The notes beneath the pieces are model-generated. The model had not been told where the DNA came from. It did not search any database and worked only from the letters and a program-made list of their open reading frames with translations. A program made the translations under genes and the position numbers. A stretch of 64,000 bases of DNA, taken from Flavobacterium cyclinae (GTDB lineage Bacteria; Bacteroidota; Bacteroidia; Flavobacteriales; Flavobacteriaceae). The stretch covers positions 1,798,001 to 1,862,000 of the forward strand of contig NZ_CP089095.1 of the NCBI RefSeq assembly GCF_021172145.1, given 5' to 3'. Within the stretch, counting starts at the first letter, position 1. Each line of letters starts with the position of its first letter. This document shows, piece by piece, positions 24,679 to 27,405 of this stretch.

Positions 24679-25065
24679 ATGAAGTTTCAGTTTCGATTAG
24701 CCTATTATTTATTTGGATTATTCTTAGGAGGTGTTTTTGTAATGTGGTTTTTAAAATCAAAAGCAACTGACAAAGGAGTAGAATTTTGTTATTTTCCAAA
24801 TTGTAGAGTTTTGAAAGATTTGAGAAGTAAATCGCTCGAAATTGATTCGCTTGCTCAAAAATCTTTAGATGGAAAATGGGTTACATTAGAAGATATTCGT
24901 AATAGTTTACGTTATGGCGATGTTGATTTCTCAAAAAGTAATGAAGCTTACAGAAAAGGTAAAATTTATGTTATAGAAGGCAAAACTTCTAAAAATGAAG
25001 AGATTACCATTACTATGGTAAATTACACAAATAAAGTACTTTTAGAAAAGATAGAAAAAAAGTAA
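24679..25065 (+). CDS. DUF4258-domain membrane-anchored protein
   Basis: The 128-residue protein has one N-terminal transmembrane helix (about residues 5-24) and a C-terminal domain with WVTLEDIRNSLRYGDVDFSKS, then YVIEGKTSKNEEITITMVN, which fits the DUF4258 pattern. Two Cys (FCYFPNCRV) lie just after the membrane segment, on the likely periplasmic side. Its function is unknown; DUF4258 members often resemble RelE-type toxin folds, but no antitoxin is adjacent. Confidence 0.7.
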   Translation: MKFQFRLAYYLFGLFLGGVFVMWFLKSKATDKGVEFCYFPNCRVLKDLRSKSLEIDSLAQKSLDGKWVTLEDIRNSLRYGDVDFSKSNEAYRKGKIYVIEGKTSKNEEITITMVNYTNKVLLEKIEKK

Positions 25066-25112: not shown

Positions 25113-25147
25113 CACTCGCAATACAGAATTAGTATAGCACGTCAGAG

Positions 25148-25204
25148 GAGTAATTAGCTCAGTTGGTTCAGAGCATCCCGAATTATCGGGAGGGTCAGGG
25201 TGAC
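25148..25204 (+). pseudogene. Truncated tRNA-Val-like copy 1
   Basis: The 5' part of the downstream tRNA-Val is recognisable: degraded acceptor strand GAGTAAT, TA, and an intact D arm GCTCAGTTGGTTCAGAGC. The anticodon arm is replaced by ATCCCG-AATTAT-CGGGA and the T arm is cut to AGGGTGAC; there is no 3' acceptor strand. It cannot fold as a tRNA. Confidence 0.75.
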
Positions 25205-25217
25205 AAAAAATATATTG

Positions 25218-25273
25218 GGGCAATTAGCTCAGTTGGTTCAGAGCATCCCGTTTATCGGGAGGGTCAGGGTGAC
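25218..25273 (+). pseudogene. Truncated tRNA-Val-like copy 2
   Basis: Same design as copy 1, 70 bp downstream: intact GGGCAAT acceptor strand and D arm, then anticodon-arm substitute TCCCG-TTTAT-CGGGA and the shortened GGGTCAGGGTGAC. An A-run and TATATTGG spacer separates it from the real tRNA. Confidence 0.75.
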
Positions 25274-25288
25274 AAAAAAATTATATTG

Positions 25289-25363
25289 GGGCAATTAGCT
25301 CAGTTGGTTCAGAGCACCTCGTTTACACCGAGGGGGTCAGGGGTTCGAATCCCTTATTGCCCA
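25289..25363 (+). tRNA. tRNA-Val (anticodon TAC)
   Basis: All arms pair: acceptor GGGCAAT with ATTGCCC, D stem GCTC/GAGC, anticodon stem CCTCG/CGAGG around TTTACAC with anticodon TAC, T stem AGGGG/CCCTT with the TTCGAAT loop, and discriminator A. CCA is not encoded. It is the only complete tRNA in the window and the third unit of a tandem array whose first two units are defective. A terminator hairpin follows. Confidence 0.95.
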
Positions 25364-25366
25364 CTT

Positions 25367-25392
25367 AATCCTACTTTTAGTAGGATTTTTTT
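25367..25392 (+). terminator. Terminator after tRNA-Val
   Basis: AATCCTAC (25367-25374) pairs with GTAGGATT (25380-25387) around TTTTA, followed by a T-run. The same hairpin recurs after tRNA-like copy 3. Confidence 0.85.
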
Positions 25393-25411
25393 ATGCCAAA
25401 ATTTTAATTAT

Positions 25412-25650
25412 ATGCCTTACACAGTCTCACTAGAGATAAATATCACGTTGGCTACACAGCCGATTTAGCTACAAGAATAATTCGTCACAATCAAAAAAGC
25501 AAAGGATTTACTGGTTCAACTAACGATTGGATTTTGGTTTACCAAGAAGAATTTAATTCCCAAAGAGAAGCTATTCAAAGAGAAGAACAAATCAAAAACT
25601 GGAAAAGTAAAATCAAAATTCTAGAATTAATTCAAAAAAATAGCAATTAG
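25412..25650 (+). pseudogene. GIY-YIG nuclease gene, copy 1, frameshifted
   Basis: Compared with copy 2, it lacks 16 bp right after ATGCCTTACACAG. The lost segment lies between two copies of TACACAGT, so slippage between direct repeats explains it, and the reading frame is broken at codon 5. Beyond that the protein is intact in another frame: YTADLATRIIRHNQKSKGFTG, NDWILVYQEEFNSQREAIQRE, EQIKNWKSKIKILELIQKN. Its TAG stop lies inside the 5' end of tRNA-like copy 3. Intact size would be about 83 residues, the size of free-standing UPF0213/URI GIY-YIG proteins. Confidence 0.8.
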
Positions 25651-25735
25651 CTCTGTTGGTTCAGAGCATCCCGACTATATCGGGAGGGTCAGGGGTTCGA
25701 ATCCCTTTCCGAAATTCGGAACAAGTTATTGCCCA
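25641..25735 (+). pseudogene. tRNA-Val-like copy 3 with a 20-nt insertion
   Basis: The D arm (GCTCTGTTGGTTCAGAGC) and T arm (AGGGGTTCGAATCCCT) match the real tRNA-Val, and ATTGCCCA is present. The 5' acceptor strand is TAGCAAT, mismatched at positions 1-2; the anticodon arm is TCCCG-ACTATAT-CGGGA without the usual T33; and about 20 nt containing TTCCGAAATTCGGAA separate the T arm from the 3' acceptor strand. It is unlikely to be functional. Confidence 0.75.
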
Positions 25736-25738
25736 CTT

Positions 25739-25766
25739 AAATCCTACTTTTAGTAGGATTTTTTTA
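25739..25766 (+). terminator. Second copy of the tRNA-Val terminator
   Basis: The hairpin ATCCTAC-TTTTA-GTAGGAT and T-run after tRNA-like copy 3 is the same as after the real tRNA, showing that tRNA, terminator and nuclease gene were duplicated together. Confidence 0.75.
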
Positions 25767-25784
25767 TACCAAAATTTTAATTAT

Positions 25785-26036
25785 ATGCCTTACACAGTTT
25801 ACATTCTACACAGTCTCACTCGAGATAAATATTACATTGGATACACAGCCGATTTAGCTACAAGAATAATACGTCATAATCAAAAAAGCAGAAGATTTAC
25901 TGGTTCAACCAACGATTGGATTTTGGTTTACCAAGAAGAATTTAATTCCCAAAGCGAAGATATTTAAAGAGAAAAACAAATCAAAAACTGGAAAAATAAA
26001 ATCAAAATTCAAGAATTAATTCAAAAAAAAAGCTAA
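25785..26036 (+). pseudogene. GIY-YIG nuclease gene, copy 2, nonsense mutation
   Basis: The N-terminal 60 codons are intact and carry the family signature YTVYILHSLTRDKYYIGYT with RIIRHNQ after it. At codon 61 a TAA (25965-25967) stands where copy 1 has CAA, so a single C-to-T change truncates it. The frame continues beyond it with REKQIKNWKNKIKIQELIQKK to the stop at 26034-26036. The C-terminal part normally supplies structural and catalytic elements, so a 60-residue product is probably inactive. Confidence 0.8.
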
Positions 26037-26056
26037 TAGCTCTGTTGTTTCAGTGT
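26030..26056 (+). pseudogene. 5' tRNA remnant after GIY-YIG copy 2
   Basis: AGCTAATAGCTCTGTTGTTTCAGTG aligns (positions 26031-26055) with the acceptor and D-arm region of tRNA-like copy 3 with a few differences, then similarity ends. It marks the right boundary of the duplicated unit. Confidence 0.6.
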
Positions 26057-26160: not shown

Positions 26161-27405
26161 ATGCAACATATTATAGATCGTTTTATAAGCTACGTTACTA
26201 TAGACACCGAATCTGATCCAAACTCAGATACTACTCCAAGTACAAAAAAACAATTAGATCTAGCCAATCTTTTAGTAAAAGAACTAAAATCAATGGGGAT
26301 GACCGATGTAACTATCGATAAAAATGGTTACGTTATGGCTACTTTAGAAAGTAATGTAAAACACGAAGTTCCTACTATAGGTTTTGTTTCTCACTACGAT
26401 ACTACACCTGATTTTACTGGAGCAAATGTAAAACCACAAATTGTAAAAAATTATGACGGTGGTGATATCATCTTAAATAAAAAACAAAATATTGTTTTAT
26501 CACCAAGTTATTTCAAAGATTTACTTTTATACAAAGGACAAACTTTAATCACTACCGATGGAACAACTTTATTAGGTGCTGATGACAAAGCCGGAATTAC
26601 CGAAATTATGTCGGCAATGGAGTACTTAATCCAACATCCAGAAATCAAACACGGAAAAATTAGAGTAGGTTTCACACCTGATGAAGAAATTGGTCGTGGT
26701 GCACATAAATTTGATGTAGAAAAATTTGGTTGTGATTGGGCCTATACTATGGATGGAAGTCAAATTGGCGAACTAGAATATGAAAATTTCAATGCAGCTG
26801 GAGCTAAAATCACTTTTAAAGGAAAAAGCGTTCACCCAGGATATGCTAAAGGAAAAATGATTAATTCAATGTTGTTAGCCAACCAATTCATTTCTAAATT
26901 ACCAAAGAAAGAAATTCCTGAAAAAACTAAAGGTTACGAAGGTTTCTTCCACGTTGTTGGAATTTCAGGCAGTATTGAAGAAACAGTGGTTGAATTAATC
27001 ATTCGCGACCATAGTGCAAAAAAATTCAAAGAACGTAAAGAGTTCATTCATGAATTAGCCAATAAATTCAATAAAAAATGGCAAAAACAATTTGGAGAAG
27101 AAATAGTAATTGCCGAAGTTAAAGATCAATACTACAATATGAAAGAAAAGGTAAAACCTGTTTTTCATATCGTAGAAATTGCTGAAAAAGCCATGAAAGA
27201 ATTAGGTATTAAACCAATCATAAAACCAATTCGAGGAGGAACTGATGGTTGTCAATTATCGTACAAAGGATTACCTTGTCCTAATATTTTTGCTGGAGGT
27301 CACAATTTTCATGGAAAATACGAATATGTTCCTGTTGAAAGCATGGTAAAAGCTACTGAAGTAATTGTAAAAATTGCTGAAATTACAGCTACAACTAAAA
27401 AATAA
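26161..27405 (+). CDS. pepT: Peptidase T (tripeptide aminopeptidase)
   Basis: A 414-residue M20 metallopeptidase with two zinc ions. Motifs: [11 protein letters not shown] (metal His and Asp), GADDKAGI (bridging Asp), [11 protein letters not shown] (Glu ligands), [14 protein letters not shown] (dimerisation/substrate His) and the last metal His in [14 protein letters not shown]. It releases the N-terminal residue of tripeptides in the cytoplasm; there is no signal peptide. A terminator follows. Confidence 0.96.

Follow-up and report, generated by a model that had tools for sequence, protein, structure and literature searches.

A decaying tRNA-Val locus in Flavobacterium cyclinae and a widespread family of GIY-YIG nuclease units anchored on tRNA genes

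A tRNA-Val locus with two broken nuclease genes

In a stretch of 64,000 nucleotides of the Flavobacterium cyclinae chromosome (hereafter the window; assembly GCF_021172145.1, contig NZ_CP089095.1, positions 1,798,001 to 1,862,000 of the forward strand), a tRNA-Val gene is followed by two copies of a small GIY-YIG nuclease gene, both of which are broken. The locus belongs, in a decaying state, to a widespread family of one-gene units that are anchored on tRNA genes. In this family a GIY-YIG gene of about 83 amino acids (aa) lies by an intact tRNA gene and is bordered on its far side, at most loci, by a partial copy of that tRNA. Usually this copy bears a palindrome, which in most tRNA-Val units sits exactly at the anticodon arm, and tandem arrays of units are frequent. 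The features of the locus are as follows, with positions counted within the window.

24679..25065, + strand: upstream flanking gene, also found in the empty allele described below (DUF4258 at 22.4 bits, under the cut-off of 25)
25147..25216, + strand: partial tRNA-Val copy (5' two thirds) with the palindrome TCCCGAATTATCGGGA (25176-25191) in place of the anticodon arm
25217..25286, + strand: second partial tRNA-Val copy, 70 bp on, with the palindrome TCCCGTTTATCGGGA (25246-25260)
25289..25364, + strand: intact tRNA-Val(tac) (ARAGORN; Infernal 70.7 bits)
25367..25392, + strand: terminator-like hairpin and T run, copy 1, read by eye
25412..25650, + strand: GIY-YIG nuclease gene copy 1, broken, with 16 bp missing near its start relative to copy 2
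25643..25735, + strand: tRNA-Val copy with the anticodon arm replaced by TCCCGACTATATCGGGA (25669-25685) and a 3'-side palindrome TTCCGAAATTCGGAA (25707-25721)
25740..25766, + strand: terminator-like hairpin and T run, copy 2, in a segment 98% identical to copy 1
25785..26036, + strand: GIY-YIG nuclease gene copy 2, 83 codons, with one in-frame stop at 25965
26032..26056, + strand: 5' tRNA-Val remnant after nuclease copy 2, its 3' part gone
26161..27405, + strand: downstream flanking gene of 414 aa, 97% identical in the empty allele, which we take to be that of peptidase T (pepT)

An initial annotation, made from the sequence alone, had described a tandem module of tRNA-Val, terminator and 83-codon GIY-YIG gene, followed by a further 5' tRNA remnant. 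The order of the parts and the remnant are present, but only the first tRNA is intact: it is the sole tRNA that ARAGORN reports in the window, and the copy at 25643 reaches 31.4 bits with Infernal, over model positions 8-63. The nuclease gene does occur twice, but in neither case unbroken, since copy 2 carries the in-frame stop and the loss of 16 bp shifts the frame of copy 1. The downstream frame of copy 1 stops at a TAG within the next tRNA-Val copy, as had been noticed. A self-comparison of the window gives 92% identity over 247 nt for the two nuclease copies and 98% over 59 nt for the two terminator segments, so that the unit was copied as a block, as had been proposed. In three tRNA copies of the window TCCCG...CGGGA takes the place of the anticodon arm, and when folded as single-stranded DNA against shuffled sequences the copy at 25643 has a z of -4.7 and the intact tRNA-Val one of -3.2. 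These anticodon-arm palindromes, the two upstream tRNA-Val copies and the unbroken tRNA-Asn example described below are additions to the initial annotation.

The first 60 codons of nuclease copy 2 match PF01541 with 42.1 bits (cut-off 22.6). Arg27 and Glu65 are invariant in an alignment of 29 sequences, and Tyr6, Tyr17 and Gly19 are nearly so; the signature and the catalytic Tyr, Arg and Glu place the protein in the GIY-YIG superfamily. The only solved relatives retrieved by sequence at E 0.001 are UPF0213 minimal GIY-YIG proteins and SLX1 (PDB 1zg2, 1ywl, 7wme).

The 3.017-Mb genome holds ten GIY-YIG matches, three of which are retrieved by the window protein. The third of these is an unbroken gene about 45 bp 3' of two tandem tRNA-Asn genes. 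This tRNA-Asn unit (L003 1267-1960; C1:238058-238750) comprises the two tRNA-Asn genes, a terminator and an intact 95-aa GIY-YIG gene, after which come a tRNA-Asn copy with two palindromes, the same terminator again and the decayed start of a second nuclease. The tRNA-Asn and tRNA-Val units have one architecture, although the nucleases are only 39% identical and the tRNA and terminator differ too. Among the five other small GIY-YIG loci of the genome, four have no tRNA within 1.5 kb and one has a convergent tRNA-Tyr about 390 bp off. The second tRNA-Val of the genome (L090 2006-2193) is followed by a palindrome-bearing copy and no nuclease, and relatives carry a nuclease in that neighbourhood. 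ARAGORN labels this copy tRNA-Lys(ttt), and such copies in another genome tRNA-SeC(tca), so palindrome-bearing copies may seed false tRNA annotations.

Linkage of the nuclease family to tRNA genes

The closest named relatives of the window protein are mostly from Flavobacterium. With the 29-sequence alignment as query, a match at E 0.001 was obtained in 209 of 295 genomes sampled from the class and in 130 of 198 from the phylum; the two draws overlap, and we take the class and phylum to be Bacteroidia and Bacteroidota. We then considered 89 class loci from 72 genomes, namely the 29 returned besides the window and the next 60 clusters, with the F. cyclinae genome excluded; they were taken best first, so weaker matches are not represented.

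A same-strand tRNA reported by ARAGORN ends 16-187 bp upstream of the nuclease in 70 of the 89 loci (median 44 bp), and chance alone would give such a neighbour to about 0.15% of genes (46 tRNAs x 200 bp, one strand of 3.017 Mb). The labels of these tRNAs cover 18 anticodons and 14 amino-acid kinds (Met 21, Val 16, Ala 6, Asn 6, Pro 6, and others). Six of the 19 loci without an upstream tRNA show a mirror order, in which a partial tRNA copy with palindromes (read by eye) lies upstream of the nuclease and the intact tRNA downstream (L098 Ala, L125 Pro, L141 Phe, L150 Arg, L164 Asn, L169 Pro); in L164 and L169 the upstream copy includes sequence that precedes the tRNA. Both orders together account for 76 of the 89 loci, in 62 genomes and 28 host families. 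The E 0.001 cut also catches other small GIY-YIG genes (eight matches in the F. cyclinae genome itself, three of them of the tRNA type), and we therefore use these 62 of 295 class genomes as a lower bound.

The linkage recurs in further samples. A tRNA lies upstream in 14 of 21 additional loci from the phylum draw, and 55 of 79 loci from named genomes, a set that overlaps in part with the relatives, have one; of the 24 that do not, 12 start less than 320 bp from a contig end. Two further mirror cases flagged among the named loci are, on reading, units of the ordinary order that a contig end has truncated. In the first set of relatives 17 of 25 places are tRNA-linked. In contrast, a GIY-YIG query that is not of the tRNA type returned 30 loci, 26 of them without a tRNA within 400 bp, and the remaining four are tRNA-type members. 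The initial annotation had suggested a search for enrichment of GIY-YIG genes of 80-100 codons 3' of tRNAs, and such enrichment is found and is strong, so that the lack of enrichment which it had named as a refutation did not occur. Members also occur in metagenome bins labelled Wolfebacteria and Deltaproteobacteria (L313, L321, L322), which may reflect real spread or mis-binned contigs; in L322 a tRNA-Pro lies 210 bp upstream of the nuclease.

On a nuclease tree of 103 proteins (82 columns, 84 rows with a tRNA label), the tRNA kind changes 24 times, while in 300 shuffles of the labels the mean was 53 changes and the lowest count 46. Some labels may be wrong, since ARAGORN reads marked copies as other tRNAs, yet it is clear that a nuclease lineage is bound largely to one tRNA kind. 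Host families change 11 times in the Val part of the tree, which is the minimum (shuffled 14.4), and 17 times in the Met part (minimum 15, shuffled 18.0). Because the Val host families cluster perfectly, we do not claim recent transfer between families. Host-family tracking was also considered as proof of horizontal transfer and discarded, as it is uninformative once isotypes are separated (57 changes against 61 in shuffles, minimum 58). The median omega is 0.10 for Val (20 usable of 21 pairs) and 0.10 for Met (1 of 3), and at a value of about 0.10 the Val nuclease is under strong purifying selection.

Two or more nuclease matches are present in 20 of the 89 class loci (some are fragments, and the two of L165 adjoin different tRNAs), in 7 of the 21 phylum-draw loci and in 24 of the 79 named ones. 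Five units at a spacing of exactly 350 bp lie beside a tRNA-Pro and four at 322 bp beside another tRNA-Pro; the largest array has ten units, 99% matching and spaced at 457 bp, beside a tRNA-Met. ARAGORN finds one intact tRNA-Pro for the five units and one tRNA-Met for the ten. The 350-bp repeat is filled by the nuclease open reading frame (ORF), the terminator and the tRNA copy, so it has no room for an integrase. The last copy of the five-unit array precedes a different sequence and terminator, which identifies the direct repeat there as the tRNA 3' half.

Palindromes in the partial tRNA copies

Downstream copies were analysed in the 66 of the 70 loci that had enough downstream sequence, four being dropped. 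The median identity to the tRNA is 0.93 for the 3' part of the copy (positions 49 to the end) and 0.5 for its 5' acceptor strand (positions 1-7), so that a direct repeat of the tRNA end stands beside a tRNA that stays intact. A palindrome, defined as GC-rich, with an arm of at least 6 and absent from the intact tRNA, was found in 43 of the 53 recognisable copies, as compared to 6.0 expected from dinucleotide shuffles.

The palindrome spans the anticodon arm in 8 of 10 class-wide Val copies that have one, and lies over that arm in 54 of 57 alignable Val units of named genomes (63 examined; units of the same array are not independent). In Met copies with a palindrome, 14 of 16 span about positions 36-48. 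The palindrome is at the anticodon arm in Pro, Arg(acg) and Lys copies, and its position varies in Asn, Thr, Ser and others. In most Val units a palindrome has taken the place of the anticodon arm at one constant position, and this is a strong mechanistic clue. The outer letters of the 14 Met palindromes are fixed and the inner pairs vary (pair 5 is C-G in 10, T-A in 3 and G-C in 1), which lends weak support to selection on pairing, because these sequences were picked for being palindromes. Thirty-one of the 43 palindromes start with TCC and end with GGA, with one extra letter allowed. In two genomes (L327 and L092), nearly identical palindrome-bearing tRNA-Val copies lie upstream of an intact tRNA-Val and are preceded by promoter-like sequence.

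Palindromes of the form TCCCGA(0-9)TCGGGA occur at 76 dispersed places in the F. cyclinae genome (reversed control 0) and at 106 in G015, with few or none in others of 30 genomes; some of them may be terminators. The idea that they are private to the tRNA units was rejected given these dispersed copies and the 42 in G012, which has no match to the Val query. Palindromes of another type, TCCGCC(0-9)GGCGGA, are scarce: the 30 genomes have 0-13 each, and in several the number is no higher than that of the control.

Three of the five non-tRNA GIY-YIG loci of the F. cyclinae genome gave rise to the idea that small GIY-YIG genes are generally tied to dispersed palindromes, in analogy to repetitive extragenic palindromic (REP) sequences and their RAYT transposases. 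A palindrome lies within 400 bp of the gene in 6 of 26 non-tRNA loci, at a density of 0.53 per kb, and the controls disagree among themselves, with 0.39 per kb around pepT (29 loci), 0.08 around an ABC-transporter gene (15) and 0.83 around the tRNAs of the F. cyclinae genome (30), so that the idea is not supported as a general rule. One non-tRNA GIY-YIG gene, as read by eye, lies amid many copies of a repeat with TCGAGCGAAGTCGAG (L038 700-2030). Another (L035 1345-2017) has on its flanks five copies of CTGAACTCGTTTCAG, a palindrome, or of its complement. Palindromes of the CTGAAC type are common to three non-tRNA loci (L035, L342 and L344).

Proposed mode of spread and relation to known systems

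Both empty and occupied sites are found. The empty counterpart of the window locus (L198, in the relative G012) has one clean tRNA-Val with its own terminator and lacks both a nuclease and tRNA copies. Its downstream and upstream genes are 97% and 85% identical to those of the window, and the gap between the flanking genes is about 0.31 kb, as compared to about 1.1 kb in the window. Another tRNA-Val neighbourhood is occupied in six genomes and empty, with a clean tRNA-Val, in two. If the tRNA is the target, this is the pattern of a homing gene, which is present at its target in some genomes and missing from it in others. Within one genome, units at two tRNA-Val genes with unrelated flanks are 96.6% identical over 522 nt, and the match starts about 35 bp before the tRNA and stops after the last terminator. 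Another genome has the nuclease at two loci, at neither of which an intact tRNA was found; the two copies are 95.5% identical to each other and about 80% identical to those of other genomes.

We lean towards a homing-like minimal unit, which would use the tRNA gene both as landing site and as source of homology arms, keep the tRNA and amplify in tandem. The nuclease would make a DNA break within or beside a tRNA gene of its cognate kind, or else at the copy that bears the palindrome, and the tRNA sequence flanking the nuclease gene on both sides would provide the homology arms for repair by gene conversion into the broken tRNA gene. The product would be an intact tRNA and a new unit. Insertion would be cheap for the host, because the intact tRNA is kept, and the event would be repeatable, building arrays, because the target is regenerated. 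Arrays would later decay, or collapse when their tRNA copies recombine with one another. In the window, two such units adjoin tRNA-Val, and both of their nuclease copies have since been broken. The initial annotation had suggested a selfish element that targets tRNA DNA; the arrangement of the nuclease tree by isotype, the clean empty sites and the same-genome copies speak for that suggestion, and the absence of visible cross-family transfer and of any visible protection of the intact tRNA speaks against it, so we put forward homing as an inference.

Several observations weigh against this reading. Although a palindrome alters the partial copy, the intact tRNA-Val next to an active-looking array (G017) does not differ from that of empty alleles, so that nothing visible protects it from a nuclease that cuts tRNA genes. 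The ORF, at about 83 aa, encodes a bare GIY-YIG domain, and a 95-residue model (mean pLDDT 89.5) has no extra domain; with no separate DNA-binding module, site-specific cutting is harder to explain. Homing enzymes of the I-TevI type have such a module, and we know of no homing enzyme that consists of the bare domain. A clean empty site could equally come from precise loss, and gene conversion could explain the similarity of copies within a genome. At the second tRNA-Val neighbourhood, a neighbouring gene of at least 67% identity is present in six other genomes (one was unscorable), and three of the six have no tRNA beside that gene. Thirteen of the 89 class loci fit neither order (two lie less than 100 bp from a contig end and one is an eight-copy array, L162), and a six-copy array in a relative (L073) has no intact tRNA nearby. 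There is no recognisable downstream tRNA copy in 13 of the 66 loci and no palindrome by our threshold in 10 of the 53 copies, and in two of the ten class-wide Val copies (L149, L181) the palindrome is at the T arm. The nuclease tree is poorly resolved (49 of 100 inner branches are open with 82 columns), no recent transfer between host families was seen in its Val and Met parts, and omega is 0.39 for Asn (3 usable of 6 pairs). One query each of phages, plasmids and viral contigs returned no relative.

A tentative alternative mechanism would ease both the unchanged intact tRNA and the bare domain, if the nuclease recognises a hairpin on the marked copy. Here a structure-selective nuclease, like SLX1, would act on the palindrome of the marked copy and spare the intact tRNA, and released or amplified units would re-enter cognate tRNA genes by tRNA homology. 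The functional end of the unit would then be a DNA hairpin, the dispersed palindromes might be by-products or partners, and the Bacteroidota units would constitute a minimal mobile element of a new class.

It is also conceivable, but in our judgement unlikely, that tRNA loci recombine on their own and passively carry along an adjoining nuclease gene that has no role. The arrays are near-identical tandem repeats, as would result from unequal crossing-over, tandem tRNA copies occur without a nuclease between them (window 25147-25286; G006, G139), and the Val nuclease follows host families. However, such duplication would not account for one nuclease family beside tRNAs of 14 amino-acid kinds across 28 host families, for an intact tRNA that may stand before or after the nuclease, for the absence of tRNA linkage in other small GIY-YIG genes, or for the strong purifying selection on the Val protein.

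A system acting at the RNA level, in which tRNA or tRNA-like RNA binds, restrains or is cut by its cognate nuclease, is very unlikely. Type III toxin-antitoxin loci have the order promoter, tandem RNA repeats, terminator and nuclease gene with low read-through, and tandem tRNA-like copies, a terminator and a nuclease gene are present here as well; a phylogeny that tracks isotypes would fit co-evolution of protein and RNA, and the palindromes could be RNA hairpins. Against this, the copy lies mostly 3' of the nuclease and its 5' acceptor strand is degraded, and the empty sites, the same-genome copies at two loci and the nuclease arrays would be left unexplained. Moreover, the toxin of such loci is a ToxN-type endoribonuclease, and GIY-YIG is the only Pfam family matched here. 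That the locus is useful to the host, with nuclease and array tuning tRNA dosage or repairing tRNA loci, is highly doubtful in spite of the purifying selection on the nuclease and of the precedent of phage SegB, whose segmental amplification is reported to raise tRNA-Tyr dosage (PMC13096335). Here it is the nuclease and marked copies, not functional tRNAs, that are amplified; moreover, the units are patchily distributed and both nuclease copies of the window are broken.

Among known systems, the units resemble tRNA-anchored islands in having a tRNA site, a partial repeat and a working tRNA, but differ from them in that the 350-bp unit has no integrase and the partial copy bears a palindrome. 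In islands that carry integrases, the tRNA gene is the integration site, a partial tRNA repeat is left behind and the tRNA stays functional. REP palindromes are mobilised by RAYT proteins, which are Y1 HUH transposases; the short dispersed palindromes of the F. cyclinae genome are similar, but the nuclease is a GIY-YIG and not a Y1 enzyme, and palindromes are not general around non-tRNA GIY-YIG genes. UPF0213 and SLX1 share the GIY-YIG domain with the window protein. SLX1 requires SLX4, the function of UPF0213 is to our knowledge not known, and we know of neither tRNA linkage nor arrays for either protein. SLX1 with SLX4 is described in PMC8287910 as a structure-specific nuclease. A term search of the GIY-YIG superfamily survey (PMC1564403) gave no hit for Bacteroid, Flavobacteri, Cytophaga, COG2827 or palindrom, and none of the three mentions of tRNA found in it concerns linkage of a tRNA to a nuclease. 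No description of bacterial tRNA-linked GIY-YIG units was found among the titles and abstracts listed in searches of an open-access library, a scope that leaves most subscription journals aside and is no proof of novelty.

The nearest known system is phage SegB, a free-standing GIY-YIG homing endonuclease of T-even phages, which according to PMC13096335 is enriched beside tRNAs of many isotypes and drives tandem amplification of a 718-bp unit of tRNA-Tyr and segB. Both systems place a GIY-YIG gene beside tRNAs and amplify the unit in tandem, and the microhomology reported there, which joins the 5' end of the tRNA to the 3' end of segB, has a parallel in the nuclease stop codon inside the next tRNA copy. 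In SegB's case a full-length tRNA-Tyr is amplified in a phage, whereas here a nuclease with a bare 83-aa domain is amplified together with palindrome-marked copies in a chromosome. If the homing-like reading is true, these units would be a selfish nuclease family, undescribed as far as the searched literature shows, that lives on tRNA genes in at least 62 of 295 class genomes and 28 host families. The family would account for pseudo-tRNAs in tandem arrays and for part of the spurious annotation of tRNAs. As a bacterial counterpart of the phage SegB system, it would also offer a directly testable case in which a minimal GIY-YIG domain is bound to a single tRNA kind.

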